From Bacteroidaceae bacterium (GTDB lineage Bacteria; Bacteroidota; Bacteroidia; Bacteroidales; Bacteroidaceae), in NCBI GenBank assembly GCA_017379075.1, contig JAFNXL010000011.1:1-64000 (forward strand): a stretch of DNA of 64,000 nucleotides, given 5' to 3'. Shown in pieces: positions 383-49,117 of this stretch (the first letter of the stretch is position 1; each line of letters opens with the position of its first letter). A model generated the notes under the pieces. That model was given only the letters and a program-made list of their open reading frames with translations, was not told where the DNA came from and did not search any database. The position numbers and the translations under genes are program-made.

Positions 383-462
383 GTTGGAACGTATGTTTCA
401 TCTGTTGGAATGTACGTTTCATCGGCTGGAACGTATGTTTCATCAGTTGGAACATAACTTTT
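383..462. repeat. 21-bp tandem array of near-palindromes (array A)
   Basis: Four units start with GGAAC/GGAAT at 386, 407, 428 and 449, exactly 21 bp apart. Units 1-3 fit TGRAACRTAYGTTYCA, a palindrome in which the differences between arms are transitions; unit 4 is degraded. The array lies in the 656-bp gap before the transporter gene, between its terminator and the leftward promoter. The rest of that gap holds only a TTTAAGAA/TTCTTAAA hairpin (542-568) and AT-rich DNA. Because 21 is a multiple of three the array is open in one frame (heptads like LERMFHQ), but I do not think it is coding. Confidence 0.85.
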
Positions 463-597
463 GCAAGGAAGAAAATACTTTTATTACACTATCCGACAAC
501 AATTTAAGCACTATGTGTCAGAAACTTTACCCATTAAGGAATTTAAGAAGCTGTTTAAATTTCTTAAAAAAGTTTTTATATAGCCATACCTTAACAA

Positions 598-637
598 AAG
601 AAGTCCGCTCAGTTTTTATTACTGAAACGGACTTCTC
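598..637 (-). terminator. Terminator of the AspT-type transporter gene
   Basis: Arms GAAGTCCG (600-607) and CGGACTTC (628-635), extended by CTCAG/CTGAA, form a hairpin. Read on the minus strand it is followed by TTTTGTT. It starts about 20 bp past the transporter stop codon. Confidence 0.8.
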
Positions 638-656
638 TTTAATATTTGTTCAAATG

Positions 657-2396
657 TTATGCCGCCACGCACAACAGCAGGATGATAAGTTGGGCGGTCA
701 ATATACGAAGGAACATACTTAAGGGATAAACCGTACTGTAGCCAACGGCTGGCGCATCGTTTCCCGCAGTCTGATTGGCAAAAGCCAAAGCTGGGGGGTC
801 GGTTGTAGAACCGGCCATCAGTCCCATAAGCGTAAAATAATTCATCTTGTAATGCAGGCGGCCCACCATTCCCATAATAAGCAAAGGAATGACGGTGATG
901 AGGAAGCCGCACCACACATAAGTAATTCCATCGCCTGCCACTACCGTATCCACAAAAGTGGCTCCAGCTTTGATTCCCACGCTTGCCAGGAAGAGCGCTA
1001 AACCTATCTCGCGCAACATCAAGTTAGCACTGGTGGTGGTATAGGCCACAAGCTTGGCTTTATATCCGAAACGACCTATCAGTATGGCCACGATAAGCGG
1101 GCCACCAGCCAAACCCAGTTTTACCGGGGTTGGTATTCCGGGAATTGCAATGGGCAGCGATCCGAAAATAATACCGATGACGATGCCTACAAATATAGTA
1201 GTCAGATTGGGATGATCCAATTTCTTTACCGAGTTGCCCATCAAATTTGCCACACGATCCACAGCATCTTCGGGTCCAACCACGACAATCTTGTCGCCCA
1301 CCTGCATACGCAGGTTGCTATCTGCATACAGATTGGTTCCCGAACGACGGATGCGGGTAACATTAACACCATAGACCGAGCTGAAATGCAACGAGCCAAA
1401 ACGTTTGCCGTTCATGCTGGGCTGTGTCACCAAAATATGTTTACTTACCATTGGGACATCCTGGTCTTCCCACTCCACATCACAAACTGGGCCGATGAAA
1501 GCGATAACCGGTTCAGCATCGTCCTCGGCGCAAACAATATACATCTTGTCCCCCTCGTGAATAATGGTATCACGGTTAGGAATGCTCACATGCCCGTCGT
1601 GCAAAATTCTTGACACCACAAAGTCACGGCCCAAGAATTGCTTCACCTGCAACAAAGTGCGTCCGGCCAATGCCTTGTTGGTTGCACAAAGTGTCATCTT
1701 ATGTGGTTTGACATGAGGATTTTCCGCCTGTTCGCGGGCAATCTGCTCCTCCTCCTTTTTCAGACTAATACGGCAGATATAGCGCAGCGCTATTGTGGCG
1801 CCGATGATACCCACCACGCCCAAAGGATAGGCACAGGCATAACCATTGGCTATGGCAGGAGCGTCAGAACCAAAAATCTGACTGCAAGCCTCGTTTGCCG
1901 CTCCCAAACCCGGAGTGTTGGTGATGGCGCCACAAAGCACGCCCACCATCATTGCAAGGTTCCGCGAATTCTCACCGGCCATTCCGCCTCCTTCGTAGAA
2001 TACAAGGAAAAACAATGATACACAGCAGATTACATTAAGCAGAATCACACCGCTTGCCAACAGGTTCATGCGTATGCCCCCTTCCTTAAAACTCTCAAAG
2101 AAACCTGGGCCTACCTGCAAACCGATACAATATACAAAGAGGATGAGTCCGAAGTCCTGCACAAAAGTCAATACGTTTGTGGGACAAGCATACATCACCG
2201 AACCTGGAGTGGAGCCAAAGAAATTATAAAGATGTCCCACCAAGATTCCGGCAAACAACACAAAAGTGACTCCAAGCGACACCCCGAACAACTTCAATCG
2301 TCCCAAGGCCAAACCCAATGAAATCACAAGGGCATACAGCACAATAATATGCGCAACCGAATCAATGTTTACAAAAAGGTTTTCAAACCATTCCAT
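657..2396 (-). CDS. AspT/YidE-family putative anion exchanger (AAE family)
   Basis: A 579-residue inner-membrane protein with the layout of the aspartate:alanine exchanger family. About five hydrophobic helices lie at residues 15-200, two RCK_C/TrkA_C-type cytosolic domains follow at about 210-375 (each ending in motifs like [15 protein letters not shown] and [12 protein letters not shown]), and a second membrane block lies at about 395-579. Family members exchange amino acids or small carboxylates; the substrate here cannot be told. The last residues, [10 protein letters not shown], are a complete C-terminus. The start codon is 32 bp downstream of the malY-like gene, so the two are probably co-transcribed, which hints at amino-acid exchange linked to sulfur amino-acid breakdown (inference). 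Confidence 0.88.
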
Positions 2397-2428
2397 AATG
2401 AATATAATTTATTAATTATCACAATCTT

Positions 2429-3598
2429 TTACAACACCGCCTTGAGGCGTTCAAGGGCTTCTGCCAAGACCTGGCGCGGGAGAGCCACATTCAGGCGCAT
2501 AAATCCCTGTCCGCCAGGGCCGAACATTTCACCGTCATTCAGTGCCAAACGAGCCTTGTTCACAAACAAGTCTACGAGTTCATCGTGCGAGAGCTTCAAG
2601 CCTCTACAATCCAACCACACCAAGAAAGATGCCTGCGGACGCAACGCCTTGATGCCGTTGAGATGAGCGGAGCAGAAATCGGCCACATAATCCACATTAC
2701 CTTGCACATACTCCAACATCTGACGACGCCATTCCTCGCCATTCCTGTAGGCTGCAATCGTTGCGATGGGAGGGAAAAGGCCGGGAGCGGCCAGTTCGCT
2801 TGCCTCAAGCCAGCCAAAGAACTTCTCGCGCAATTCTTCATCGGACACCACGGCATAGGAAGACACCACTCCGGGAATGTTAAACGTCTTGGACGGAGCG
2901 CCAAAAGTGATGCTTATCTCGGCTGCCTCGGGACAGACAGAGGCAAAGGGTATATGCTTGTGCCCGTAAAGTGTCATATCCGAATGAATCTCATCGCTGA
3001 TTACCAAAATGTTGTGGGCATGGCAGAAACGAGCCAGTTTCCGCAAAGTATCCTTGTCCCAAACCAATCCTGCGGGATTATGTGGATTGCTCAGGATGAA
3101 CAACTTGCACGATTCGTCACAAATGCGCTCCAACTGTTCGAAATCCATTGCATAAGTGCCGTCCTTCTGTTCAATCAAAGGATTGAATACCACTTCGTAA
3201 CCGTTGTTTTCCGGTATCAGGCGGAAGGGATGGTAAACAGGAGGCTGAATGATCACCTTGTCCCCCTTCTCCAGGAAACAGTTCACCACAAGACCGATGC
3301 CCTTCACAATGCCGGGAATATATGAAAGCCATTCGGGCTTTACCTCCCACTGATGATGCGATGCAATCCAGTCCACTATAGCTGGGCGGAAATCCTCTGG
3401 CTCAACAGTATATCCCAGAACGGGATGTTGGAGCCGTTCCCTGATTGCGTCTACGATGAAGTCCGGTGTGGCAAAATCCATATCGGCCACCCATAGTCCA
3501 ATCAGGTCATCTCTGCCATACGTCTGCTGCATGGCAGCGTGCTTCACATCGCCCGACCCTCTGCGGTCAACCAATGTGTCAAAATCATACTTTTTCAT
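2429..3598 (-). CDS. MalY/PatB-family PLP-dependent cystathionine beta-lyase or aminotransferase
   Basis: A 389-residue fold-type I PLP enzyme. It starts with the typical FDTLVDRRGSGDVKH block, then LWVADMDFATP. SNPHNPAG (about residue 172) is the cofactor/substrate motif, SDEIHSDM holds the PLP-pyridine Asp, and GAPSKTFNIPG (about residue 235) holds the PLP lysine. MalY/PatB enzymes cleave cystathionine or cysteine S-conjugates; some act as aminotransferases. No signal peptide, so cytoplasmic. First gene of a probable two-gene unit with the AspT-type exchanger. Family assignment is firm, exact substrate is not. Confidence 0.9.
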   Translation of the reverse strand: MKKYDFDTLVDRRGSGDVKHAAMQQTYGRDDLIGLWVADMDFATPDFIVDAIRERLQHPVLGYTVEPEDFRPAIVDWIASHHQWEVKPEWLSYIPGIVKGIGLVVNCFLEKGDKVIIQPPVYHPFRLIPENNGYEVVFNPLIEQKDGTYAMDFEQLERICDESCKLFILSNPHNPAGLVWDKDTLRKLARFCHAHNILVISDEIHSDMTLYGHKHIPFASVCPEAAEISITFGAPSKTFNIPGVVSSYAVVSDEELREKFFGWLEASELAAPGLFPPIATIAAYRNGEEWRRQMLEYVQGNVDYVADFCSAHLNGIKALRPQASFLVWLDCRGLKLSHDELVDLFVNKARLALNDGEMFGPGGQGFMRLNVALPRQVLAEALERLKAVL

Positions 3599-3653
3599 TG
3601 TTTCTGTAAAGATGCGTAATTAAATACTACATAACAACCTTTGAAAAACCATG

Positions 3654-3661
3654 CAAAGGTA
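3654..3661 (-). promoter_or_regulatory. -7 element for the malY-like/transporter unit
   Basis: TACCTTTG on the minus strand, 56 bp before the malY-like start codon. No good -33 TTTG lies at the expected 19-20 bp, so it is a partial match. Confidence 0.45.
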
Positions 3662-3743
3662 CCTAAAATATCTTATTTGGGCGCCTCTCCCAACAAAAAA
3701 TCAGACTTTAACGGAGATTCTTTTTCTATTTTCTTCCGTTTCT

Positions 3744-3774
3744 TTTGCCATCACGGGATTTTTGTTTAATTTTG
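3744..3774 (+). promoter_or_regulatory. Promoter of mutA-mutB
   Basis: TTTG (3744-3747), 19 bp spacer, TAATTTTG (3767-3774): full match to the Bacteroidetes consensus, about 40 bp before the mutA start codon. No cobalamin riboswitch is visible in the short leader. Confidence 0.7.
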
Positions 3775-3815
3775 CTCCACTTATTAGCATTATACATTAT
3801 TTAATTTATTAAAAA

Positions 3816-5672
3816 ATGGCAGATAATAAAGAAAAACTTTTTTCTGATTTTACCGCCCCCAGCGCCCAGGAATGGCGCGAGAAGATTGAGGTAGACCTCA
3901 AGGGTGCAGACTATCAGAAAAAGATGGTTTGGAGAACCAACGAAGGTTTCTCCATGGAACCGTTCTACCGCAAGGAAGACGTGGACAAACTGGCCACCGT
4001 TAACGCCTTGCCCGGTGAGTTCCCCTATGTTCGCGGCAACAAGGCTGCGAGTAACGAATGGCACGTCCGTCAGGACATCAAGTGCGAATGCCCCAAGGCA
4101 GCAAACGAGAAAGCGCTTGACATCCTCAACAAAGGCGTGGACAGCATCGGCTTCAACGTTCCCGCCAAGGAACTGAGCGCCGAGTACATCTCCACTCTTC
4201 TTGACGGCATCCAGGCCGAATGCGTAGAGCTCAACTTCCAGACTTGCCAGTGCCAGTCTGTGGAATTGGCCAAGATTCTGGTTGCCTATTTCCAGGAGAA
4301 GGGTTACGACCCCGCAAAGATTGAGGGTAGCATCTGTTTCGATCCCATCGGCAAGATGATCACCAAGGGCAAGGACACCACCGAGAAACTGGCTTGCGCC
4401 AAGGAACTCGTGGAAATCTTCGCCGCCTACCCCAACTTCCGTGCCGTAGCAGTGAATGCCTTCTACCTCACCAATGCAGGAGCCTACAGCTATCAGGATC
4501 TGGGCTACGCCCTGGCTTGGGGTAACGAGTACATGGCACAGCTCACCGAGGCCGGTGTGGCCCCCGAAGTTGCCGCACAGAACATCAAGTTCAACTTGGG
4601 TATCAACGGCGTTTACTTCATGGAGATTGCCAAGATCCGTGCAGCCCGCATGCTGTGGTCACAGATTGTAAGCCAGTATACCGCCTGCAAGGAAAGCGCC
4701 AAGATGCACATCTGCGCCATCACCACCACATACAACCAGACTTTGTTTGACAGCTATGTGAACATGCTGCGCACCCAGACCGAGGCCATGAGTGCCGCTC
4801 TGGGAGGTGTGGACAGCATTGTTGTGGTTCCCTTCGACGCTCCCTACGAGGCTCCCACCGAGTTCGCAGAGCGCATCGCACGCAACCAGCAGTTGCTGCT
4901 GAAGGACGAGTGCCACTTCGATCGCATGGTAGACGTTGCCGGAGGTTCTTACTTCATTGAGCAGCTCACCACCGATCTGGCCAAGCAAGCATGGAACCTT
5001 TTCCTCGCTGTTGAGGAAGAAGGCGGCTTCCTGGCTGCAGCCAAGGCCGGAAACATCCAGAACGCCATCAACACCACCAACGCCAACCGTCACGCAGACG
5101 CAGGCAAGCGCAAAGAATTCTTGCTGGGTACCAACCAGTTCCCCAACTTCACCGAGACCAGCGAAGGCAAGGAACCCGTTGCATGCTGCTGCAAGGCCTG
5201 CTGCACAGAAGGTGCCGAGACCGAGATTCCCGCACTCAAGACCGCACGCCTGTCAAGCGACTTCGAAGCATTGCGCCTGACCACCGAGAAGGCAGAGAAG
5301 ACACCCGTTGCCTTCATGCTCACCATCGGCAATCTGGCCATGCGCCAGGCTCGCGCCCAGTTCAGCTGCAACTTCCTGGCCGCTGCCGGATACAAGGTTG
5401 TGGACAACCTGGGCTTCGCCACCGTGGAAGAAGGTGTGGACAAGGCTCTTGAAGCCGGTGCAGACATCGTTGTCATCTGTTCAAGCGACGACGAATACGC
5501 AGAATATGCAGTTCCCGCATACAAGTATCTGGACGGCCGCGCCATGTTCGTTGTGGCAGGTGCTCCCGCTTGCGCGGAAGACCTCAAGGCTGCCGGCATC
5601 GAGAACTTCATCCATGTCCGCGTAGACCAGCTGAAGACATTGAAAGAGTATAACGCTAAATTAGGAATCTAA
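3816..5672 (+). CDS. mutA: Methylmalonyl-CoA mutase, small (beta) subunit
   Basis: A 618-residue cytoplasmic subunit of the heterodimeric B12 enzyme that interconverts succinyl-CoA and (R)-methylmalonyl-CoA in the succinate-propionate pathway. The TIM-barrel half spans about residues 30-450, with [17 protein letters not shown] near the start and [13 protein letters not shown] near 370. A flavodoxin-like cobalamin-type domain follows at about 490-618. It lacks the DxHxxG cobalt-binding motif, as expected of the non-catalytic subunit. The linker holds a cysteine cluster, ACCCKACC (Cys 457-459, 462, 463), which I do not know as a family feature. GC-rich, regular codon use suggests high expression. 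Only 4 bp separate it from mutB. Confidence 0.96.
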
Positions 5673-5676
5673 GATT

Positions 5677-10301: not shown

Positions 10302-10420
10302 TTGTTGTCTTACCCGTTATTCCTATAATGGAAGGAATAGACTTTGGCAGTCGGATGAGTCAGTATGAACACATTTGACCAGCAAATCCCAACATCTCAC
10401 CGAATCACGCATGTAACGTG

Positions 10421-10890
10421 CTACTGTAGCTGTTTGTAGCGTGATGCACGAATGTAAAGCTCTACTGTAGCTGTTTGTAGCGTGATACACGAATGTAAAG
10501 CGCTACTGTAGCTGTTTGTAGCGTGATGCACGGATGTAAAGCGCTACTGTAGCTGTTTGTAGCGTGATGCACGGATGTAAAGCGCTACTGTAGCTGTTTG
10601 TAGCATGATACACGAGTGTAAAGCGCTACTGTAGCTGTTTGTAGCCTGATGCACGAATGTAAAGCGCTACTGTAGCTGTTTGTAGCATGATACACGAATG
10701 TAAAGCGCTACTGTAGCTGTTTGTAGCATGATACACGAATGTAAAGCGCTACTGTAGCTGTTTGTAGCGTGATACACGAATTAAAGCGCTACTGTAGCTG
10801 TTTGTAGCGTGATACACGAATGTAAAGCGCTACTGTAGCTGTTTGTAGCGTGATGCACGGATGTAAAGCGCTACTGTAGCTGTTTGAAGC
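10421..10890. repeat. 41-bp tandem array, 12 copies (array G)
   Basis: CTACTGTAGCTGTTTGTAGC starts at 10421, 10462, 10503, 10544, 10585, 10626, 10667, 10708, 10749, 10789, 10830 and 10871: period 41, one unit 40 through a 1-base loss. Each unit has two palindromes, GCTAC-T-GTAGC and CGTG-ATR-CACG, with centres alternately 20 and 21 bp apart. A third GTAGC half-site is also present. Differences between units are single substitutions, so this is not a CRISPR array. It fills the gap between two convergent genes, bounded by terminators at 10272 and 10901. Nothing else is recognisable in 10242-11058. Confidence 0.95.
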
Positions 10891-10900
10891 GTAAACAAAA

Positions 10901-11058: not shown

Positions 11059-14000
11059 CTATTTCCCTTTCTTCTTCGGGTGCTTGGTGAACCTGTACAT
11101 GACGTGCAGCAGGGCATATCGGGGCATCACGTTGGTGTACGTTTCGGTGCGGCCCTGCGCGTTCACGGTGCGCGTTACATTGGAAAGCTGGCCCAGGATG
11201 TCGAATCCGTCAACCATCACCAGCAGCTTGCCCTTGCAGAAAGGACGCGCAAGACGGGCGTTCCACACCAGGTCGGCCGTGTTGAGCTGCGCTTCGGCAT
11301 AGCCCGTGCGGCCGTAGAGTGTGAGGTCGGTGGTGAGGTCGAACTTCCACGGCAGATGCACCGTTCCGTCCGCACCTATGCGGTACTGCCAGGCGGAGAT
11401 GTCCTGGAACGTGGAGCGGTCGCCCGTGTAACGGTTCCATGACACGTCCGATGTGAGGTTCAGCGCATGCTTGCCCAGGGTGAGGCTCAACTTCGGTGCC
11501 ACAGAGAGCGCGGCGTTGCGCACGATGCTTCTGGTCGCCTGTGCCGCTCCCGTCTCCGCCATCAGGTCCACGCTGTTGCGGTAGTTGAAGTTGGACGTGA
11601 TGCCTGTGCTGTGCTTCTTACCCTCGCCGAAACTGTAGTTGAGCCTGTGCTTGGCCGACAAGTCCCAGTTGCCGTTCACGTTCTCGGGACGATAAGTGCG
11701 TATGCCCGTTGCCCGGTCATAGGTCTGGCCCATGCCGATGGCGTTGCGGGTGAAGCCGTAGTCCAGATAGCACATGTTGCGCCAGGGGTGCTTGCTTGGA
11801 TTCCAAGTGCCTTCAAGACCCACACTTGTGCGTAGGGAGGCATGCAGGTCGGGGTTGCCAATGCGGATGTTCATGGGATCCGTGTCATCCAGGACGGCGG
11901 CCTGGTTCAGCAGTTCGGGCACTTCGTTCTTCAACGACATTGACAAGCCGATATAGCGACCGTCATTTTTCCGGAACCACGGGTGAACAAAAATATCGAA
12001 GGTGGGCGCCACTCGGCGGAGCGTGGTGTCTATGCTTCCCCGCTCGTATTCGTGCTCTTGTTGTGTCAGGCGGGCCGTCATTTTGGTCAGCACCTGGAAT
12101 TGGCCTCGGTCGGTCTTCTTGAACTCATAGCCCGAGTTGATGTAGACCTGATGCTCGTTGTCAATGTAATGGCTCAGGTGGCTGTTGTTGCGGTCAATCA
12201 CCTGCTGGTATTCGCTCACGCTCGGCAACCGGTCAATCGGACGGGCAAAGGTGGAATCGGCACCCGCCAGGCGGTCAAGGCGATAGATGCTTTCGTGCTC
12301 GCGCTGATTGCGATGGGTAAAGTCATATTTTATCGTGATAGACCTCCATCCCTTTCCTTGCACCCTATAATCCAAACTGGGAGCAAATACAACCTTGCGC
12401 CGTGGCGAGAGGTCGGTATACTGGTGGCGGAACAGGGGTTGTGCCGGAGCGGCATAGGCGACCGACTGGCGCGAGAACTGCTCCCGGGCATTCTCGGAAT
12501 AGTTTCCACTCAGATAAAAACCGAGCACATCGTTGCTACGCTTCATCTTCAGCCTTCCCCACACGGTTGCGTTGGCATCCAGATTGTGTCCCGTACCCAA
12601 TCCCTCGCGCAGCTGGCGGTTGATAAGCGTGTCGCGCAGGTCGGGGCGCTGCGTGGCGGAGGAGAAGAGGTCGTCCAGCAACTGGCGGCTGGCATCGGCC
12701 ACGGGAGCCGAGAACAGAGCGGAGGCACTTCCCGACTCGTGACGGAAGCGGTGGTAAGAGGCTTCAGGGTCGATGTGCAGCATCAGTCTGTCGTTCGTAA
12801 ACTCCACATTGTGACTCGTCTTCAGGTTCCAGTCCTCATTACGCGCCTGGCTGAAGAGATATTCGTATGTGTCGCCTTGCGGCAGGAAGGTCTGCGCCGT
12901 GGTGCGCTGGTCCAGCTTTTCCGTGGAGTGGCGCGCATCTATGCCGCCATCGTATGCCCACCGGTGGTCTCGTCTTTCCACATGAAAGTCCACCGCCGCC
13001 ATCTCACTTCGGCGAAGGGCATTCGTGGCACTGCGTCCCCACTGCCCTCTTTCGCCCGGTTTGCTGCTGTCGTCCAGGTTGTTGGCGTTTGCCACAACCG
13101 CCAGGCGCGAGAACTCGGAATGGCGCATGGCAAAGACGCGGCCCAGATAACGGTCGCCCGTGCCACCGCCTGCCTCCACATTCGCCATCCAGCCAATCAT
13201 ATATTCTTTCTTCAACAGCACATCAAGCACACAACGCTGTGTCTGTTCGTCCTTGCGGCCCAACCATTCGTTCTCGGCAGTCTGCTTGTTGTAAAGTTTC
13301 ACCTCCTTCACGGTATAGGCCGGCAGGTTGTCCAAGAGCAGACGGCGGTCATGAGCGAAGAGTTGCTTGCCGTTGAGCAGCAGGTCGTCCACAAACTCAC
13401 CGTTGTAATAGATTCGGCCGTCGCTCTTCAGTTCCATGCCCGGCAGCTGTTTGATGAGGGCATCCAGCATGGAGCCTTCCGCCAGCACAAAGGCATCGGC
13501 GTTGAAGATGAGAGTATCATTCTTGTAATAGAATTTTACCCTTGAGGCGGTAACCAGCACCTCCTGCATGGTTTTCGCCTTCGGTTCCGGCCTCAAATAA
13601 AATGGCGGCAGCTCGCGTTGATGCTCACGACGGCCTATGCGTTCCAAACGGTATGCCACGCAAGCGGTCTGGAACCCCTCATGGGCAATGCGGAAGATGT
13701 AATCGGCTGGTTTTGCCGGCACCGTAAAGGCGAATTCGCTGGTTGTCCATTCAAAAGTCTGTCCCCCTACATAACCTCTATACGGCCACTTGGCCTCCAC
13801 CTGTTGCAGCACGGTACTGTCCGCGCTGAGCAGTTCCACCGTGCCGCCAATAAGATCTTTGTGGGCACGGATGTCCTCCACCTTACTCTTCAGCCTCAAT
13901 GCCTTTACCTCCTTCCGCTTGTCATACTGCACGCTGATGTCCCGTCCGCGCACCTTTACCTTGACGGGCAGGTTGCGGCAGATGAGTTCCACGGCATCGG

Positions 14001-14208
14001 GCACGGAAAGGCTGTCCGCCTCGGCCGTAACACGCAAGTCGGCAAGGCCCTCCGAGAGGATGTCTATGCTATATTCCGTCTGTTCGCCACCGATGGTCTG
14101 CAAGGCTTCGAGCAACGGTGTGTTGCGAAAGGAGCGGGAAGACTGTGCCACCGCAATGAAAGACAGACACATCAGAAAGGACTGCAATGCAAAAAATCGT
14201 TTCATCAT
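11059..14208 (-). CDS. TonB-dependent receptor-like outer-membrane protein with N-terminal STN domain
   Basis: A 1049-residue outer-membrane protein with signal peptide at 1-21 (FFALQSFLMCLSFIAVAQ). An STN (secretin/TonB short N-terminal) domain at about 25-100 is typical of receptors that signal to an anti-sigma factor. A plug-like segment at about 215-310 begins VLVTASRVKFYYKNDTLIFN and contains LDALIKQLPGME. The rest is predicted beta-barrel of the OMP_b-brl type. Its ATG overlaps the anti-sigma stop by 4 bp (ATGA), so translation is probably coupled. No SusD partner follows, so the ligand is unknown. With the two upstream genes it forms a trans-envelope signalling unit. Confidence 0.85.
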   Translation of the reverse strand: MMKRFFALQSFLMCLSFIAVAQSSRSFRNTPLLEALQTIGGEQTEYSIDILSEGLADLRVTAEADSLSVPDAVELICRNLPVKVKVRGRDISVQYDKRKEVKALRLKSKVEDIRAHKDLIGGTVELLSADSTVLQQVEAKWPYRGYVGGQTFEWTTSEFAFTVPAKPADYIFRIAHEGFQTACVAYRLERIGRREHQRELPPFYLRPEPKAKTMQEVLVTASRVKFYYKNDTLIFNADAFVLAEGSMLDALIKQLPGMELKSDGRIYYNGEFVDDLLLNGKQLFAHDRRLLLDNLPAYTVKEVKLYNKQTAENEWLGRKDEQTQRCVLDVLLKKEYMIGWMANVEAGGGTGDRYLGRVFAMRHSEFSRLAVVANANNLDDSSKPGERGQWGRSATNALRRSEMAAVDFHVERRDHRWAYDGGIDARHSTEKLDQRTTAQTFLPQGDTYEYLFSQARNEDWNLKTSHNVEFTNDRLMLHIDPEASYHRFRHESGSASALFSAPVADASRQLLDDLFSSATQRPDLRDTLINRQLREGLGTGHNLDANATVWGRLKMKRSNDVLGFYLSGNYSENAREQFSRQSVAYAAPAQPLFRHQYTDLSPRRKVVFAPSLDYRVQGKGWRSITIKYDFTHRNQREHESIYRLDRLAGADSTFARPIDRLPSVSEYQQVIDRNNSHLSHYIDNEHQVYINSGYEFKKTDRGQFQVLTKMTARLTQQEHEYERGSIDTTLRRVAPTFDIFVHPWFRKNDGRYIGLSMSLKNEVPELLNQAAVLDDTDPMNIRIGNPDLHASLRTSVGLEGTWNPSKHPWRNMCYLDYGFTRNAIGMGQTYDRATGIRTYRPENVNGNWDLSAKHRLNYSFGEGKKHSTGITSNFNYRNSVDLMAETGAAQATRSIVRNAALSVAPKLSLTLGKHALNLTSDVSWNRYTGDRSTFQDISAWQYRIGADGTVHLPWKFDLTTDLTLYGRTGYAEAQLNTADLVWNARLARPFCKGKLLVMVDGFDILGQLSNVTRTVNAQGRTETYTNVMPRYALLHVMYRFTKHPKKKGK

Positions 14209-14786
14209 GGTTCTTCCTCCTCGTCGTTGGTTTGCGAAACGATGATGGTATCGCCTTCAAGGCTGACGCTTATGCCATCAAAGGCATTCAGACGGTCAAT
14301 GAAGTCCGCCAGCTGGGTGCCGGGACGCCAGGTCATAATCAACATCTTGCGTCGCAATTTCTTCTCGCGGAAAATGACAGTCTTGCCATAATGGGCGGAA
14401 ACCGCAGACAGAATGCTGTCAAGCTGCACGTTGTCAAAGCGGACAGCCGTATCTGTGGGCAGGGATTCGGCAGCATCGGGACTTGCGGTTTCCTCCACTT
14501 CAGCCGGTCGTGTATTACTATAGCGCACTATGCGGATGGTGGCAAAGGAAATGCCCACTATGAATGCCGCACCAGCAAACAAGGCGGCAAATCTGAGCCA
14601 TCGCCGCATACCCCTTCCGCGCTTCCGCACTGCCTTCTCCCTCTTCTCAAAGCGTTCCCAAGCACCGTCGGCATCTGGCACCCGGTCTATGTGGTCCATC
14701 ATGGCCTCCAACTGTTCGTCGGAGTAGTTTTCGGGATGTTCCTGCATGTCAAGGAACAACCGCTTGTTTTCTTCTAATCGCATCAT
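14205..14786 (-). CDS. FecR-like anti-sigma factor
   Basis: About 193 residues from the ATG at 14786. An upstream ATG at 14861 would overlap the sigma gene deeply and is less likely. The N-terminal third is cytosolic and charged, with one membrane helix at about 80-100 (LRFAALFAGAAFIVGISFATI). The periplasmic C-terminal part (FDNVQLDSILSAVSAHYGKTV to ISVSLEGDTIIVS) resembles the STN-like/DUF4974 domain of FecR proteins. It should hold the ECF sigma factor at the membrane and respond to the STN receptor encoded next. The start is 11 nt after the sigma stop and the end overlaps the receptor start. The canonical FecR middle domain is short or absent, so subfamily is uncertain. Confidence 0.72.
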   Translation of the reverse strand: MMRLEENKRLFLDMQEHPENYSDEQLEAMMDHIDRVPDADGAWERFEKREKAVRKRGRGMRRWLRFAALFAGAAFIVGISFATIRIVRYSNTRPAEVEETASPDAAESLPTDTAVRFDNVQLDSILSAVSAHYGKTVIFREKKLRRKMLIMTWRPGTQLADFIDRLNAFDGISVSLEGDTIIVSQTNDEEEEP

Positions 14787-14797
14787 AACTTCTGGGA

Positions 14798-15286
14798 TTA
14801 AATCGTCTTTTGTCCAAACTGTTTCTTGATTGCCGTAATGGCGTGCGAGAGATGTTTCCACACCGCCACCCTGCTGATGCCCTCGGCCTGGGCTATCTCC
14901 TCATAGGTGAATCCGTCTGTGAAGCGCAGGCCGAAGATTCGCTGTTCCTGCGGTGACAGATGGCTCACCACAAATTCCACGATGTCAGTCAGTCGCCCGT
15001 CGGCGGCATCGTCCTCGTCTGTGGCTTCAGGAATAGGAGCGTTGCGCTTCACGGCTTGGTGACGCAGACGCTTCAGACAGCGGTTACGGACGCTTGTCAG
15101 CAGATAGCGTTCCTCTGTGCCAGGCATCAGCGCAATGCCGCTGCTGAGCAGTTGCTCGAAGATGTCGCTGACCACATCCTCGCTCTCCTGCCCGTCGCAG
15201 AGCAGGGTTTGCGCCACCCTCTGCATCTTGGCATAGTGCTGTCTGAACAGTTGTTGGATTATATCTCGTTCCATCACGTTTCTCAA
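14798..15286 (-). CDS. ECF-type RNA polymerase sigma factor
   Basis: About 162 residues; the in-frame ATG at 15274 (MERDIIQQLF) is an equally good start. Region 2 is at about 10-75 (FRQHYAKMQRVAQTLLCDG, DVVSDIFEQLL) and region 4 at about 105-155, with the helix-turn-helix in DGFTYEEIAQAEGISRVAVWKHLSHA. Directly followed by the anti-sigma and STN-receptor genes, the layout of iron-siderophore or glycan-sensing sigma systems. Its target is likely its own operon or a distant SusCD locus (inference). Confidence 0.92.
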   Translation of the reverse strand: MRNVMERDIIQQLFRQHYAKMQRVAQTLLCDGQESEDVVSDIFEQLLSSGIALMPGTEERYLLTSVRNRCLKRLRHQAVKRNAPIPEATDEDDAADGRLTDIVEFVVSHLSPQEQRIFGLRFTDGFTYEEIAQAEGISRVAVWKHLSHAITAIKKQFGQKTI

Positions 15287-15401: not shown

Positions 15402-15596
15402 AAATCCACTCCGATTATTTTCGCTTTCCAGGGAAATGACAAATAGGCCCCCACTGCCATTGGGAATCTTCTATACGTATTTGCCTTAATTGAGGAGATT
15501 TTAAGCCCCTCAAACAAGTCTATCAGACAAAAACAGAAAACCCGCACTAGAATTGATTATCAACGTATTGCATTTACAATCCCATCTCATTGAAAT

Positions 15597-15690
15597 GTAA
15601 ACGGATTTACCCTTAAGTGTAAGTGGATTTACATAGTGAGGTAAGTGCGTTTACATAGAACGGTAAATCCACTTACATCGTGATGTAAAA
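15597..15690. repeat. 22-bp tandem array of GTAA-N6-TTAC palindromes (array B)
   Basis: Units GTAAACGGATTTAC (15597), GTAAGTGGATTTAC (15619), GTAAGTGCGTTTAC (15641) and GTAAATCCACTTAC (15663), exactly 22 bp apart; a fifth at 15685 keeps only the left arm. Unit 4 is the exact reverse complement of unit 2. The array is in the 844-bp gap between the MFS gene end and the sigma-factor gene start. Confidence 0.9.
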
Positions 15691-15857: not shown

Positions 15858-15934
15858 GTTGGGCAGGAAAAAGTGCCCAGTTGGGAAAAAATATGTTTCC
15901 AGTTGGCAAAATTAATCTTCCTAGTTGGAAACCC
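15858..15934. repeat. 22-bp tandem array of GTTGG units (array C)
   Basis: GTTGG starts at 15858, 15880, 15902 and 15924, 22 bp apart. Unit 1 has GGGCA/TGCCC arms, unit 2 GGGAAA/TTTCC arms, unit 3 GG/CC only, and unit 4 is cut short. Nearby are other dyads, ACTTTGACAAAGT (15788-15800) and TGTAAAA/TTTTACA (16009-16031). The remainder of 15287-16130 shows no gene. Confidence 0.8.
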
Positions 15935-27847: not shown

Positions 27848-27968
27848 AGTCTTTTTTCTGACATCACCGCTTAGATTATGCATCTAATCGGCCTGCATTA
27901 TGAAATTCCGTCATAAACTGCATGCATTTTCCGCACAACAAATCGCATTGCCACAAGCCCCATTTCTT

Positions 27969-28008
27969 TTTTCCTCCCGAGGAAAATTTTACTCCCTCCC
28001 GAGGAAAA
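27969..28008. repeat. Pair of CCTCCCGAGG palindromes 22 bp apart (array D)
   Basis: TTTTCCTCCCGAGGAAAA centred at 27977.5, and CCTCCCGAGGAAAA centred at 27999.5. The same palindrome type and 22-bp spacing recur at 49079-49117. Lies between the GH20 terminator and the GH31 promoter. Confidence 0.8.
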
Positions 28009-28030
28009 TGAAATTGCCCGCAAAAACAAA

Positions 28031-35548: not shown

Positions 35549-35660
35549 GTTGTGCACTTTTTAACGATTGAAACTCGGTCTGGCGCCCACTTTAAGGACT
35601 TCCTACGGCACGAAAATATAAAAATTTTCTGAAATACAACATTTAATCCGTGTAAAAATG

Positions 35661-35932
35661 GAATTTCAATCTGAAATTGTACTTTCGCATAGTGTGGAAA
35701 TGGAATTTCAATCTGAAATTGCGCTTTTACATAGTGTGGGAATAGAATTTCAATCTGAAATTATGCTTTCACATAGTGTAAATATAGAATTTCAATCTGA
35801 AATTGTGCTTTTACATAGTGTAAATATGGAATTTCAATCTGAAATTGTGCTTTTACATAGTGTAAATATGGAATTTCAATCTGAAATTACACTTTTACAT
35901 CGTGTGGAAATAGAATTTCAACATAATACGCA
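35661..35932. repeat. 42-bp tandem array of alternating palindromes, 7 copies (array F)
   Basis: GAATTTCAATCTGAAATTG starts at 35661, 35703, 35745, 35787, 35829 and 35871; a degraded seventh is at 35913: period 42. Each unit has AATTTCA-ATC-TGAAATT and TTTACA-TAG-TGTAAA, whose centres are 21 bp apart, so dyads occur every 21 bp throughout. The plus strand is open across the array (14-residue repeat MEFQSEIVLLHSVN), but other arrays of this type have periods that cannot be coding. The remainder of 35549-36277 holds only an AT element and a terminator. Confidence 0.93.
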
Positions 35933-36072
35933 GGATCTTTTAACAGGAAAGCCATCAGCAAGCCCCCAAAAAGCCCTTTCGGCCAAATGAAAATCCCCTC
36001 CCCCACACCGCCAGCAATCATTCTGATGCCCAAACTGCCACACCGCACTGTTTTAGTCATCCCGGCCATGCC

Positions 36073-42206: not shown

Positions 42207-42269
42207 CTAGAAGGCCTAGAAGCTCTAGATGTTCTAGAAATACTAGATATCTTAGAAAACCTAAAAAAC
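42207..42269. repeat. 9-bp CTAG array, 7 units
   Basis: CTAG, TTAG or CTAA at 42207, 42216, 42225, 42234, 42243, 42252 and 42261, exactly 9 bp apart, mostly CTAGANNNN. It fills the 80-bp gap between the GH18-ThuA and ThuA genes. Same plus-strand orientation as 39270-39323, although the flanking genes there run the other way. Confidence 0.9.
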
Positions 42270-45121: not shown

Positions 45122-47112
45122 ACTTCTTCAGATTCTATATTCTTGTCGTTATTCTCCGGTGCGTCTTCCGTCTCCTGTTTTTTTTCATCCGCAGCCAGCA
45201 GTTCTTCCGTGCGGCTGGTCCAGGGACGCGGGCCGAAGATTTCTTCCACATCCTCGGCAAAGACCACCTCACGCTCAACCAGACGTTCCGCCAGCAAAGC
45301 ATGCTGCTCGCGGTGTTCACTAAGGATTTGGCAGGCACGGTCGTACTGCTCGGCAATCATCTTCTTCACATCCTCGTCAATGAGCTGTGCCGTAGTTTCC
45401 GAATAGGGACGGTGGAACGAGTATTCATCCGTATTATAATAGCAAATGTTCTGCAAGCCCTCGCCCATTCCCATATAAGCAATCATGCCGTATGCCTGCT
45501 TGGTCACACGTTCCAAATCATTCATGGCACCGCTACTGATATGTCCGGTACAGAGCTGTTCAGCCGCTCTTCCCGCCAATGTGGCACACATTTCGTCCAA
45601 CATCTGTTCGCGTGTGGTTATCTGTCGTTCTTCGGGCAGATACCAGGCTGCGCCCAGTGCACGGCCACGGGGAACGATGGTAACTTTTACCAAGGGGTTG
45701 GCATATTCAAGAAGCCAGCTTATGGCTGCATGGCCGGCCTCGTGCAGGGCAATGGTCTTCTTCTCGGCTGCCGTCATCACCTTGGTTTTCTTTTCCAGAC
45801 CTCCGATGATACGGTCCACTGCCGCCAGAAAATCCTCGCGGCTGACATGCGTCTTGTTGTGGCGCGCAGCAATCAGTGCCGCCTCGTTACATACATTGGC
45901 TATGTCCGCACCACTGAAGCCAGGCGTCTGGCGGGCCAGGAAATCCACATCGAGCGAATCGTCGGCCTTGATGGGGCGCAAATGCACCTGGAAGATTTCC
46001 TTACGCTCATTCAGGTCGGGAAGGTCGACATATATCTGACGGTCAAAGCGTCCTGCACGCAGCAATGCCTTGTCCAATACATCAGCACGGTTGGTTGCGG
46101 CCAAGATGATGACACCGCTATTGGTGCCAAAACCGTCCATTTCCGTAAGCAACTGATTGAGCGTGCTTTCGCGCTCGTCATTGCCACCCATAGCCGCACC
46201 CTTAGAACGGGCACGTCCCACAGCATCAATCTCGTCAATGAAAATGATGCAAGGACTCTTTTCCTTGGCCTGACGGAAGAGATCGCGCACTCGGCTGGCA
46301 CCCACACCCACAAACATCTCCACAAAGTCGGAACCGGACATGGAGAAGAAGGGTACGTCCGCCTCGCCTGCTACAGCCTTGGCCAGCAGGGTCTTACCCG
46401 TTCCCGGAGGTCCCACCAGCAAGGCGCCTTTGGGAATCTTTCCTCCCAGTTCAGTAAACTTTTTGGGATTCTTCAGAAACTCCACAATTTCCTGCACCTC
46501 CTGCTTGGCACCGGCTTGTCCGGCCACATCGGCAAAGGTTACACGGCCTACATGGTCCTTTTCTACCAGTCGGGCACGACTTTTGCCCACATTGAAGATT
46601 CCCATCGGTCCGCCGCCCGAACCGCCGCCGCCCATGCGACGCATCACAAACATCCACATGAACAGAAGGAAAATTAGGGGGCCGAAGCTCCACAGGAAAT
46701 TGCCGAAAAGGCTGCTGTTCTTCTTATAGGTTACATCGCCGTTAAAGTTACCCAATTCCTGCTGGTCGGCAAGGAACTCGTCCAGTTTGTCATTGGAGGG
46801 GTACTCGGTTTCCACATAAGGCACCCTGCCCCTTTCTACGGGCATGTTCTTGAACACGTCACGAATGTGCTCCGCGTCCACATACATCTGCAGTTCGCCA
46901 TCGTCCTTGTTGGCAATGATACGCTGGGCATATCCGTTTTCCACATAGGTCTTGAATTCGCCATAAGCCACAGACTTGCTGCTTCCGCCCATCACGGCTG
47001 TCTTGTTGTCACTGGTCAATACCAGATAACCCAATATGCCCGCAATGATGACATATATCCAGGTCAGGTTTATCTTGGGCCCGTTATTGTTCTTCTTGTT
47101 TTTTTCTTCCAT
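45118..47112 (-). CDS. ftsH: ATP-dependent zinc metalloprotease FtsH
   Basis: A 664-residue membrane AAA+ protease that degrades misfolded and regulatory membrane proteins. Membrane helices lie near 16-32 and 130-150. Walker A is GPPGTGKT (about 235), Walker [12 protein letters not shown] (about 295), then [10 protein letters not shown] and the arginine finger region RAGRFDRQI. The zinc site HEAGHA is at about 453. The glycine-rich [21 protein letters not shown] linker is typical. The acidic tail is low complexity. Operon rsfS-ftsH-cdsA. Confidence 0.98.
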
Positions 47113-47154
47113 TTTTCTCTTTTTCTGATTTTACAATATCCTTTCGGAAGCACT

Positions 47155-47520
47155 TCAGTCCAAATCGGGGATAAAGGCCAGTTCCGCATCGGCCCACAGA
47201 TGTTCGATGTCATAGAAGTCGCGCTCCTCCTCCAAGAATATGTGCACCATCACGTCCGCATAGTCCATGGCCACCCAATGGGCATAATGCATGCCATCCA
47301 CAGCCAGGGGATGAATATGCAGTTCGCTGCGCACTTTGTCGTCCACACTCGATGCCAGGGCATTAAGCTGTGCGGGCGAACCTCCGGTACATATTATCAT
47401 GTGGTTGCAAATGGTGTCGGGGATTACGCTCAGGTCCACATCCACTATATTGCGGCCTTTCTTATCTTGAAGTGCATCAATGATGATCTGCACCATTCTT
47501 TTTGTACTATCTGATTGCAT
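47155..47520 (-). CDS. rsfS: Ribosome silencing factor RsfS (YbeB/DUF143)
   Basis: A 121-residue protein that binds ribosomal protein L14 and blocks subunit joining in slow growth. Family blocks: IIDALQDKKGRNIVDVDL, DTICNHMIICTGGSPAQLNAL and GMHYAHWVAMDYADVMVHIF with the usual C-terminal FYDIEHLWADAE. First gene of the operon with ftsH, divergent from the tRNA-Gln pair. Confidence 0.96.
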   Translation of the reverse strand: MQSDSTKRMVQIIIDALQDKKGRNIVDVDLSVIPDTICNHMIICTGGSPAQLNALASSVDDKVRSELHIHPLAVDGMHYAHWVAMDYADVMVHIFLEEERDFYDIEHLWADAELAFIPDLD

Positions 47521-47560
47521 TTTTTGCCGTCTATAAATATATATAAGGTGAAAAGTCGCA

Positions 47561-47592
47561 CAAAGGTACTGATTGTTACGATAAAAAACAAA
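47561..47592 (-). promoter_or_regulatory. Promoter of the rsfS-ftsH-cdsA operon
   Basis: Minus strand TTTG (47589-47592), 20 bp, TACCTTTG (47561-47568), 40 bp before the rsfS start. Divergent from the tRNA promoter 27 bp away. Confidence 0.75.
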
Positions 47593-47618
47593 TAATTAAC
47601 ATTTTTTTGCCATAATCG

Positions 47619-47649
47619 TTTGTCACTTCAAAAAAAGTATGTAAATTTG
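47619..47649 (+). promoter_or_regulatory. Promoter of the tRNA-Gln pair
   Basis: TTTG (47619-47622), 19 bp, TAAATTTG (47642-47649), 29 bp before the first tRNA. Confidence 0.72.
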
Positions 47650-47678
47650 CAGCGCAAAAGAGGAAAAACCTTTTTTAT

Positions 47679-47749
47679 TGGGCTATGGTGTAATGGTAAC
47701 ACTGCAGATTCTGGTCCTGCCTTTCCTGGTTCGAGTCCGGGTAGCCCAA
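47679..47749 (+). tRNA. tRNA-Gln (anticodon CTG), copy 1
   Basis: 71 nt. Acceptor TGGGCTA pairs fully with TAGCCCA, discriminator A, no encoded CCA. D arm GTGT/ACAC, anticodon loop TTCTGGT in the stem GCAGA/CCTGC (one A-C closing mismatch), T arm CCTGG-TTCGAGT-CCGGG. Confidence 0.95.
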
Positions 47750-47805
47750 CTCCTCTGAAGCAACGCAAGCAGGGCTGGAGCCTGGCTGCGAAAACAAAAA
47801 ACGAT

Positions 47806-47876
47806 TGGGCTATGGTGTAATGGTAACACTGCAGATTCTGGTCCTGCCTTTCCTGGTTCGAGTCCGGGTAGCCCAA
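47806..47876 (+). tRNA. tRNA-Gln (anticodon CTG), copy 2
   Basis: Identical in sequence to copy 1, separated by a 56-bp spacer that is not duplicated. Probably co-transcribed from the promoter at 47619 and ended by the terminator at 47881. Confidence 0.95.
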
Positions 47877-47880
47877 CAAA

Positions 47881-47920
47881 AAAAGAGAATCCCACATCAG
47901 GTTCTCTTTTTTTTATTTTT
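47881..47920 (+). terminator. Terminator of the tRNA-Gln pair
   Basis: AAAAGAGAA / TTCTCTTTT stem with a long T tract. It also lies 8 bp past the stop of the convergent lipoprotein gene and may serve both. Confidence 0.88.
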
Positions 47921-47927
47921 ATTGCTT

Positions 47928-48971
47928 TCAATACAAATTCAGGAGCGATTGCCGGTTGTCCTCTTCGTAATCGCATTGGCCGTAACCCGACTGCATGATT
48001 TCCTCCTCCGTCTTGCGCACAAAACGATGTTCCTCATAGTACGGAAATTTCGACTTTTCCTTGAACAGTAGAAGGGTGTCCTGCATCAGCCTGCCCTGGT
48101 AACGGACGGTGTCCTGGAAATACTCGAAGGAAAACTGCCTCCACAAGTAGTAGCCCTCCCGCTTTGCCTCCATGGCGGTATGCACATCCAAGGCCAACGG
48201 CCCGCTGAAATAGTCCACGTCTCTTGAGTCCAGCATGAAGCCAATCGTATCTCCCGCCATGCTGATGTCCTGCATCTGCCATACGGAAAAGCCCGGATAG
48301 AAACCTTCGCGGGCATCATAGAACTCATCGCTCGTGCCCCAGAAAAATCCGTCCACCACCACGCTATCCTTGAAACGCAGTTCAATGACATTATCCTCTT
48401 GGTGCGTATTGAATTCGCCATACTCCCACAAGTAATGAACAATGGAATCGGCGGCATATCCCCTCGCTATACCGGCAATGGATTGCGGCCCGTCCTGATG
48501 AGGATGGATAATGTCATCCACATACCAGTCCAGATTGCCCCGCAGACTTTCACGCACAGCCCGGACACGGACAGAACGGATATCGTCCTCGAAAGCGCGG
48601 AAACGCACCGCCACCATGGCCGTGTCCTCAATCTGGCTTTCCAGCGTGACCATCTCAAGCACCAAGCTGTCGAAATCCTGCAAATCCGTCCAGATATTGG
48701 AACTGTACACCAATTCGTTCTCTGGCAATTGGCTCCAGATTCCCCTGAGACGGGAAGAAAAAACCGATTGGACGTCATAGGCGAAATCGCCTTTGTTATA
48801 ATGTGTGAAGAGCCCCTCATACAACGCCTTTATGCGCGAAACCGCATCCGTTCCGCCAACCACCAGAGGCACCTCCACGGGCTCTTCCACGGTCTTTACC
48901 TCTGGCTTTTCCCGCTTACAGCCCATGCAAACAAGCAGGGCAAGCAGGCAGACTAAATTCACACTCTTCAT
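47928..48971 (-). CDS. Lipoprotein of unknown function with DUF3828-like segment
   Basis: About 347 residues. The ATG at 48971 is chosen because the promoter at 49008-49039 makes the upstream ATG at 49010 impossible and because KSVNLVCLLALLVCMGC gives a lipobox. YEGLFTHYNKGDFAYDVQSV and GNLDWYVDDIIHP resemble DUF3828-type periplasmic proteins. A second half (about 180-347) has the repeated beta-type segments NVIELRFKDSVVVDG and VRYQGRLMQDTLLLF. Not recognised further. Confidence 0.7.
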   Translation of the reverse strand: MKSVNLVCLLALLVCMGCKREKPEVKTVEEPVEVPLVVGGTDAVSRIKALYEGLFTHYNKGDFAYDVQSVFSSRLRGIWSQLPENELVYSSNIWTDLQDFDSLVLEMVTLESQIEDTAMVAVRFRAFEDDIRSVRVRAVRESLRGNLDWYVDDIIHPHQDGPQSIAGIARGYAADSIVHYLWEYGEFNTHQEDNVIELRFKDSVVVDGFFWGTSDEFYDAREGFYPGFSVWQMQDISMAGDTIGFMLDSRDVDYFSGPLALDVHTAMEAKREGYYLWRQFSFEYFQDTVRYQGRLMQDTLLLFKEKSKFPYYEEHRFVRKTEEEIMQSGYGQCDYEEDNRQSLLNLY

Positions 48972-49007
48972 CCGTCCTTTTTCTCGTTTCAAACGTCTTT
49001 CGGAAAG

Positions 49008-49039
49008 CAAAGTTAGCCAATAATTGCCTTTCCCACAAA
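49008..49039 (-). promoter_or_regulatory. Promoter of the lipoprotein gene
   Basis: Minus strand TTTG (49036-49039), 20 bp, TAACTTTG (49008-49015), 36 bp before the ATG at 48971. Used to fix the start codon. Confidence 0.72.
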
Positions 49040-49078
49040 TGTAAGGTCAGAAATCAGCTGGATTTAACAAGTTTTTCA

Positions 49079-49117
49079 TTTTCCTCGGGAGGGAAAAAGA
49101 ACGCCCTCCCGAGGGAA
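49079..49117. repeat. Pair of CCTCSSGAGG palindromes 22 bp apart (array E)
   Basis: CCTCGGGAGG centred at 49087.5 and CCTCCCGAGG at 49109.5, both flanked by TTT/AAA. Same palindrome and spacing as 27969-28008. It sits between the divergent promoters of the lipoprotein gene and truA, 43 bp and 24 bp from their -33 elements. Confidence 0.82.

Follow-up and report, generated by a model that had tools for sequence, protein, structure and literature searches.

Intergenic palindrome arrays sharing a 20–22-bp phase in Bacteroidales: putative platforms for stacked DNA-binding dimers

Seven arrays of short, evenly phased palindromes lie in a 64,000-nt stretch of a Bacteroidaceae genome (the window), at the positions originally predicted, and comparison with other genomes bears out the proposal that they form a class sharing geometry rather than sequence: The same 22 bp recurs in many species with unrelated sequences. 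The reading we favor, at slightly better than even confidence, is that the arrays are putative DNA platforms for stacked dimeric binding units, perhaps wrapping DNA.

Results

The seven arrays are unstranded features. Array 1 (374..462) has 21-bp units with dyad centers at 382, 403, 424, and 445. Array 2 (10406..10892) comprises about 12 units of 41 bp, in each of which, as read by eye, GCTAC-T-GTAGC and CGTG-ATA-CACG alternate 20/21 bp apart. Array 3 (15595..15690) has 22-bp units with dyads at 15614.5, 15636.5, 15658.5, and 15680.5, and array 4 (15858..15934) is a 22-bp direct repeat around TTCCAGTTGG with ambiguous dyad spacing. Array 5 (27967..28010) holds two CCTCCCGAGG palindromes, and array 7 (49079..49117), located between divergent genes and upstream of truA, pairs CCTCGGGAGG with CCTCCCGAGG; in each, the two copies lie exactly 22 bp apart. 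Array 6 (35650..35921) contains 6.5 units of 42 bp in which AATTTCA-ATC-TGAAATT alternates with TTTACA-TAG-TGTAAA, 21 bp apart; it falls within a mechanical open reading frame (42 bp = 14 codons), taken as spurious.

Tandem Repeats Finder reported period 21 for array 1 (383–453), 41 for array 2 (10406–10892), 22 for array 3 (15619–15678), and 42 for array 6 (35650–35921), and 20–22/41–42 bp is the leading period among the window's noncoding repeats. When dyads were fitted at equal spacing, array 1 was best at 21 (score 27 vs. 19 for the best other spacing) and array 3 at 22 (24 vs. 20); 22 led narrowly in array 7 (12 vs. 11) and tied with 20 in array 5, and the fit was ambiguous in array 4 (16.5 scores 19, 22 scores 18), where lag 22 is seen as a direct repeat. 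A fixed-threshold scan detected dyads in arrays 1, 3, 5, and 6; in arrays 2, 4, and 7, with their short or imperfect palindromes, no dyad reached the threshold. In 100 dinucleotide shuffles at each of three settings, a scan that left out array 1 (located before the first gene) gave a mean of 0–0.01 matches at the array lags. The spacing of two helical turns originally read into the arrays holds at 22 bp in most of them, but some are spaced at 20.5–21 bp. A coding explanation was rejected given the periods of 22 and 41 and the location of the arrays in gaps. An Rfam scan of the window returned two tRNAs and nothing else.

Judged from sequence, the arrays belong to dispersed families, each genome carrying its own motifs. 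Within this genome, an element near-identical to array 1 lies at L123:10144 and a relative of array 4 at L117:16505, and contigs C51, C44, and C27 carry relatives of array 2; the array-5/7 motif occurs at 39 places, mostly with two palindromes per site rather than four, and is missing from 35/40 congeners. Arrays 5 and 7 share CCTCSSGAGG, so the seven arrays are not seven independent sequences, and the notion that each has its own sequence gives way to one of dispersed, species-specific families, with geometry still the common property of the class. All arrays in the window lie between genes, as predicted, but genome-wide 10/38 distinct members of the array-5/7 family fall within genes, as assigned by a hexamer model plus Pfam matches for 10/10 of those genes. 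Four foreign motifs proved dispersed in their own genomes (4/4), with 44 forward matches in G017, 166 in G002, 108 in G057, and 83 in G058, against 0 in each of the four for a reversed-pattern control. The many places occupied by a genome's motif families have no pathway in common.

The spacing itself is enriched over shuffled intergenic DNA. In 619 pooled gaps from congeners and other Bacteroidales, fixed-lag counts made with N excluded gave 24 three-copy cores at lag 22, vs. 0–3 at each remaining lag between 16 and 40, and 20 shuffles gave 0. A new 236-kb sample of whole stretches contained six matches at lag 22, vs. two at lag 16 and one at lag 41; all six fall within 140 kb of Bacteroides sp. 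214, some of whose arrays (CAGTCA, CCATAGG units) resemble plain direct repeats. The predicted conservation in relatives was likewise found, the spacing occurring in related genomes and being absent or rare in order-level and non-Bacteroidales samples: An order-level sample (14 stretches, 209 kb) held 0 lag-22 cores and 1 lag-23 core, and 14 loci of other Bacteroidota held 0 at lag 22. Free-spacing searches placed 16/16 exact pairs at 22 bp in this genome and, in G002, all 100 matches listed, of 122, at 22 bp, many of them being two strands of one interval. The stretches sampled from this genome are not wholly unbiased, contigs C27, C44, and C51 having been chosen for their array-2 family matches. 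Among 34 arrays at lag 21–23, copy number is four in 18, and dyad symmetry is individually significant in only 11. Chance was rejected on the basis of shuffles, reversed-pattern controls, other lags, and comparisons with coding DNA and E. coli.

Four palindromes are the commonest array size, found in 17/27 clusters of G002 and 13/17 arrays of G017, where two others are cut by contig ends and one chance cluster (L151:16110) was removed from the count. G002 units have special ends: AGGGG occupies 33/34 outer half-sites vs. 61/102 inner ones, CTT/ATG adjoins the outer half-sites, and the 24 flanking bases shown hold no shared end beyond it. A longer left flank is common to 11/17 copies in G017. 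G002 linkers vary, its palindromes are conserved, and its listed spacings are constant; in the families tested, the spacing is locked, with conserved palindromes and variable linkers. Among 76 palindromes of this genome's array-5/7 family, 33 deviations were one-sided and 0 paired, under a 2-mismatch limit that permits yet disfavors paired changes; among 68 palindromes of G002, 38 were one-sided and 2 two-sided. This excess of one-sided over paired changes fits DNA read by a protein.

Flanking genes are diverse, with 46 proteins representing 86 Pfam families, each in ≤2 proteins, and no adjacent gene family recurred among those examined. Array positions were not found to be conserved between species in a comparison of loci: Five pairs share one related neighbor, two of them clearly (94% and 80% identical), and 0 share both. 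Array 2 lies in a convergent gap, as do 6/22 arrays in G002 and 5/14 in G017 (both neighbors called); the strand of the left neighbor of array 6 is uncertain. Depletion of arrays from divergent gaps was indistinguishable from local background. Judged from alignment, two genic sites of the array-5/7 family arose in place rather than by insertion: The SurE site is ungapped against 12/20 congeners, the other 8 being gapped on the query's side, and the DHH-protein site is ungapped against PDB 4py9. RecG, whose alignment to PDB 1gm5 is broken by two residues at the site, was left out of this count, and for the TPP-enzyme (MenD-like) site, with three homologues at 40–46% identity in 20 congeners, the alignment near the site is uncertain. 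A metallo-β-lactamase alignment was also made among the genic sites and not counted.

Discussion

Under the explanation we prefer, identical dimeric DNA-binding units would sit side by side on one helix face, two turns apart, and a full platform, most often of four palindromes, would hold four dimers over ~88 bp. One protein per genome, or a few related ones, would bind cooperatively and perhaps wrap the DNA in the manner proposed for octameric Lrp-type regulators; both the wrapping and an architectural role are suggested by analogy. The platforms, mostly behind genes, may have a part in chromosome architecture or local topology and not be tied to a single regulon. Their spread could have combined copying (near-identical elements in G017) with in-place site building (the genic sites), the motif changing along with the protein from one species to the next. 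Of the readings in the original prediction, the phased dimer-site one is favored by the exact spacing, the variability of the linkers, and the behavior of the half-sites; the suggestion that the targets belong to proteins differing in specificity agrees with how the species differ, but no binder was found. Against the platform reading weigh the individual significance of dyads in only 11/34 arrays, the direct-repeat look of some Bacteroides sp. 214 arrays, the usual two palindromes in this genome's array-5/7 family, the location of arrays toward the 3′ end, the left flank common to many G017 copies, the unconserved positions, and the lack of lag-22 cores in the order-level sample and in the loci of other Bacteroidota. 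A bolder version, which we hold to be rather doubtful, posits a new chromosome-organizing system in Bacteroidales: a fast-evolving, species-specific DNA-wrapping protein would assemble as four dimers on palindromes phased at 22 bp, and would do so at tens of chromosomal sites. Such a system would be the bacterial equivalent of nucleosome-positioning elements, protein and site coevolving so rapidly that geometry alone is conserved.

A lesser but appreciable possibility is that the arrays are MITE-like or other nonautonomous elements, their internal minisatellite period incidental and their spacing kept by unit copying. The high species-specific copy number of the motifs, the flanks shared by near-identical G017 copies, the two near-identical array-1 elements, and the defined ends of G002 units all fit this account, as do BrickBuilt and MITEPgRS, whose 23- and 41-nt repeats lie, in the available part of the source, inside IS5-like ends (PMC4596501). 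In 20/22 co-directional cases from G002 and G017, the array sits nearer the 3′ end, a placement also compatible with a mobile repeat that is passively tolerated. Mobility sits less well with the recurrence of 22 bp across species with unrelated sequences, with linkers that vary while listed spacings do not, with the two checkable genic sites, which are not insertions, and with G002 flanks that share, in the bases shown, only CTT/ATG beside the outer half-sites.

Operators of ordinary transcription factors, forming regulons, are improbable: The palindromes sit in gaps, array 7 is flanked by divergent genes, and one motif at L061 occurs in the gaps preceding two neighboring genes, but arrays also lie in convergent gaps or inside genes, and adjacent gene families do not recur. 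Strings of RNA hairpins acting as terminators or mRNA 3′ stabilizers are more improbable still. They would suit the 3′ bias, which across three families amounts to 31/36 co-directional cases (a duplicated region entering the tally twice), the weak polarity with transcription in G002 (11/14, P = 0.057), and array 6, beside which no separate terminator-like hairpin was found; yet one-sided changes outnumber paired ones 33:0 in this genome's family and 38:2 in G002, asymmetric CGCCTAGGGG forms are common in G002, separate terminator-like hairpins adjoin arrays 2 and 5, and RNA offers no reason for an exact 22-bp spacing. REPIN/REP elements mobilized by a RAYT (Y1) transposase seem to us scarcely tenable. 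The arrays are palindromic, mostly extragenic, species-specific, and present in many copies, but the REPIN layout is not known to show 22-bp direct phasing. A PF01797 (Y1_Tnp) profile search found no match in 8/12 genomes, including G002 (166 forward motif matches; genome 76% complete); this genome, G013, and G022 had two each, and G017 one below cut-off.

If the arrays are dimer platforms, many Bacteroidales genomes would hold dozens of address sites whose spelling varies by species and whose spacing is fixed to the base. The putative binder would be findable by simple pull-down, and the sites could say how these chromosomes are organized and provide a natural series for protein–DNA coevolution. 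This wider class may also take in the 22-, 23-, and 41-nt minisatellites that are scattered in Porphyromonas gingivalis.

Among known systems, dispersed chromosome-organizing sites such as matS, SlmA sites, and Noc sites are palindromes that number in the tens on a chromosome and occur both within genes and between them; these are single palindromes, whereas the arrays are phased and carry a species-specific word. As for CRISPR, units of 22 bp seem too short, and different arrays have linkers in common. REP, BIME, and REPIN elements are, in the available text, short, dispersed, species-specific extragenic palindromes (PMC3733652, PMC2817692), from which the arrays differ in their fixed 22-bp phasing and in the lack of a Y1 transposase match in G002. 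PINSR of Prevotella intermedia, in the part of its description available, has 177 and 184 intergenic copies in two strains, is restricted to one Prevotella group, and is a 188-bp unit without terminal inverted repeats (PMC4755523); its unit length differs from that of the arrays.

The available portions of work on Lrp/FFRP proteins describe palindromes of 13–17 bases, one dimer each, two or three helical turns apart, and for BarR four to five regularly spaced sites with DNA wrapped around an octamer (PMC10201364, PMC2995911). A layout of about four 13–17-base palindromes two turns apart is seen in arrays 1 and 3, G002, and G017; arrays 5 and 7, with two palindromes each, depart from it, and dyads reach significance in 11/34 arrays. 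Lrp/FFRP proteins act at single regulated promoters, whereas here there are dozens of dispersed platforms for a putative protein; the BarR text, as far as available, states two turns, but its 15-bp sites plus 15–17-bp spacers would total ~31 bp.

That no named element of this kind was known in Bacteroidales holds in part, given published P. gingivalis repeats. In the available part of one paper, BrickBuilt (23-nt) and MITEPgRS/MITE464 (41-nt) are species-restricted intergenic tandem repeats with about 10–20 copies per genome, built as MITEs with a leader, a tail, IS5-like ends, and 1 to 23 repeats, and strain W83 is said to hold unplaced 22/23/41-nt repeats; that part mentions neither phased palindromes, nor a unit fixed at four copies, nor a geometry common to several species (PMC4596501). 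Like BrickBuilt and MITEPgRS, the arrays are gap repeats of ~22–23 or 41 nt in many copies, with part of this genome's family in genes, and we regard the P. gingivalis 22/23/41-nt repeats as partial precedents.

Phased Arrays in the Window

All seven intergenic arrays that the original prediction had placed in the window are present there: arrays 1–7, at 374..462, 10406..10892, 15595..15690, 15858..15934, 27967..28010, 35650..35921, and 49079..49117. Their periods are 21 bp (array 1), 41 bp (array 2), 22 bp (arrays 3 and 4), and 42 bp (array 6); arrays 5 and 7 each comprise two copies 22 bp apart. Equal-spacing dyad fits returned 21 bp for array 1, 22 bp for array 3, and, by a narrow margin, 22 bp for array 7, with array 5 tied between 22 and 20 bp and array 4 ambiguous as a dyad array (direct repeat of 22 bp). 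Because their palindromes are short or imperfect, a thresholded scan detected no dyads in arrays 2, 4, and 7. Dinucleotide shuffles of the window's intergenic gaps almost never matched at array lags (distances between repeat copies), as the predicted enrichment over shuffled DNA implied, and a lag scan at three settings found only two repeats outside the class in these gaps, both 9-bp, near 42208 and 54087.

The 41-bp family of array 2 occurs on four contigs of the window's genome, with no match in 40 relatives at E ≤ 0.001. A second 41-bp family in this genome (L125:3837 and L127:12325) has nested palindromes, TTCCC...GGGAA inside AAAAATG...CATTTTT. Array 6 falls within a mechanical 110-aa ORF (window 35658–35990) made of 14-residue repeats, since its 42-bp period is divisible by three; the ORF is probably spurious and might conceivably encode a peptide. 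Genes for an ECF-type sigma factor, a FecR_C-like protein, and a large outer-membrane beta-barrel protein stand in a row at 11059–15286, adjoining arrays 3 and 4. Two + strand tRNA genes of equal size and equal Rfam score lie near each other (47679–47749 and 47806–47876).

A Shared 22-bp Spacing Across Bacteroidales

Repeat cores, defined as a 13-base word occurring three times at a constant lag, were counted in 80 loci surrounding the gene for methylmalonyl-CoA mutase (78 from Bacteroidota by record title, and two outgroups) and in stretches of the window's genome, of 20 congeners, and of further families in the order, with 200 kb of E. coli K-12 scanned as well. Gaps held 11 lag-22 cores in congeners (54 kb) and 13 in Bacteroidales loci (123 kb); pooled, these 24 compare with 0–3 at each other lag from 16 to 40. 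A lag-22 core was present in 23 of 619 such gaps and in none in each of 20 shuffles, so that the predicted 20–22-bp spacing extends to relatives. In the window's genome, where three of the sampled contigs were selected for holding the array-2 family, gaps (54 kb) yielded three cores at lag 22, two at 21, and eight at 41. Coding DNA had no lag-22 core, and E. coli gaps (32 kb) yielded none.

The class is widespread, yet patchy, as no lag-22 core was found in 14 order-level stretches (one at lag 23) or in 14 loci of other Bacteroidota. A separate later sample (236 kb, scanned whole) gave six, all from 140 kb of Bacteroides sp. 214. The six 22-bp arrays in this 140 kb (L314, L315, L317, and L318) include some that lack clear palindromes and resemble plain direct repeats; two, at L317:12880 and L318:19365, are near-identical.

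A typical array has four near-palindromes set precisely 22 bp apart, and the linkers between them vary. Among 34 arrays at lag 21–23, copy number was four in 18, three in 9, and five in 7 (detection required at least three copies). Palindromes are frequent and are not proved for each array, given that consensus dyad symmetry reached P ≤ 0.05 in 11 of 34 arrays at lag 21–23, vs. 1 of 22 at other lags (Fisher P = 0.018).

Species-Specific Families

Palindrome words differ by species (CCCCTAGGGG, AAGACGCGCGTCTT, AACCAGTGACTGGTT, TCCTTGCAAGGA, GTATACAACTTGTATAC, and GACCCGGGTC). The expectation that each array has its own sequence holds only in part within the window's genome: arrays 5 and 7 share a motif, two CCTCSSGAGG palindromes 22 bp apart, which occurs at 39 places with at most two mismatches (hereafter, the own family). 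Among 40 congeners, 35 had none, G013 had 11 (a variant), G015 had 3, and three others had 1 each; a reversed-pattern control gave 0 in the window's genome and 4 over all 41. Two loci of this genome, L172 and L181 (contigs C37 and C89), represent one region in opposite orientations, a real duplication or an assembly artifact.

The four foreign motifs searched are likewise dispersed, species-specific families. The motif of congener G017 had 44 forward matches in G017 and 0 in 11 other genomes; that of congener G002 had 166 in G002, a few in G017, one in G015, and none in 9 others. Two motifs came from beyond the genus, out of genomes that record titles assign to Tannerellaceae and Prevotella; within their source genomes they had 108 and 83 forward matches, respectively, and each had none in 8 other genomes.

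Genomic Placement

Gene calls came from a purpose-built hexamer model rather than a curated annotation; for the left neighbor of array 6, two gene scans disagree on the strand. The predicted position between genes holds in the window, and arrays are also intergenic in G002 (26/26; 25 loci examined) and G017 (17/17), but 10 of the 38 distinct own-family sites are inside Pfam-recognized genes (chance expectation ~0.1 matches per genome, from reversed-pattern controls). These genes include RecG, SurE, DHH phosphodiesterase, a TPP enzyme taken as MenD, DsbD, S13 peptidase, and an ABC ATPase. In co-directional gaps, arrays were closer to the 3′ end of the upstream gene in 12/14 cases in G002, 8/8 in G017, and 11/14 in the own family (one region a duplicate). 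Array-adjoining genes have no evident common function: 46 G002 neighbor proteins carry 86 Pfam families, none in more than two proteins, and 30 scanned in G017 carry 38, none in more than one.

Locked Spacing, Half-Sites, and Origin

With the gap free between 2 and 32 bases, all 16 exact own-family pairs were at 22 bp, as were all of the 100 G002 matches listed of 122 (many being both strands of one interval). Spacing is thus locked in both families, and inter-palindrome linkers in G002 vary widely; slippage alone would not preserve length while sequence varies. G002 units are also bounded: in 17 four-palindrome arrays, AGGGG occupies 33/34 outermost half-sites vs. 61/102 inner ones (Fisher P = 1e-5). 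Changes are mostly one-sided, with 33 one-sided and 0 paired departures in 76 own-family palindromes, where the limit of two mismatches per pair allows but disfavors paired change, and 38 one-sided and 2 two-sided GGGG/GGCG choices among 68 G002 palindromes. This pattern points to a protein reading half-sites in DNA rather than to RNA hairpins. Separate terminator-like hairpins adjoin arrays 2 and 5; a search next to array 6 returned none.

The main rival reading is still that the arrays originated as mobile repeats, whether or not a protein binds them. Eleven of 17 G017 arrays have a left flank in common and a twelfth shares the right flank, so copying plays a part. At six G017 loci (L252, L254, L258, L260, L263, and L264) a longer repeat encloses the array, and several copies adjoin related proteins (23–72% identical); the single protein scanned matched TPR and DUF6377 no more than weakly, under the cut-offs. 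Two of the 10 genic own-family sites arose in place, judging from protein alignments. The SurE site aligns without gaps to 12 of 20 congeners, and against the remaining 8, which are more distant, gaps at or around the site fall in the query, meaning that no insertion took place; the DHH site aligns gap-free to the solved structure 4py9. Residues at the SurE site differ from the GLP of most relatives, which may mean that the DNA word took precedence over the protein sequence.

Comparison with Known Repeats and DNA-Wrapping Proteins

Comparable repeats are on record: BrickBuilt (23 nt) and MITEPgRS (41 nt) elements in P. gingivalis, with 22-, 23-, and 41-nt repeats noted in strain W83 (PMC4596501), and PINSR, a 188-bp group-specific repeat with 177 and 184 copies in two P. 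intermedia strains (PMC4755523). In the titles and abstract openings of the open literature, most subscription journals lying outside, we found no description of a 22-bp geometry shared across Bacteroidales. We propose that each array would be bound by several adjacent dimers on one helix face, two turns apart. Such platforms may be architectural rather than regulatory, since they are numerous, show no preference for any gene function, and occur within genes and in convergent gaps. The candidate binder would be a protein that works in the manner of Lrp, BarR, or RemA. RemA is described as a ring-shaped octamer that probably wraps repetitive DNA (PMC8481266), BarR as using four to five sites at regular intervals, the DNA being wrapped around the octamer (PMC10201364), and Lrp-type proteins as recognizing palindromes of 13–17 bases with centers two or three turns apart (PMC2995911). 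On this proposal, the arrays would resemble such Lrp-type targets in presenting several dimer sites on one face, two turns apart.
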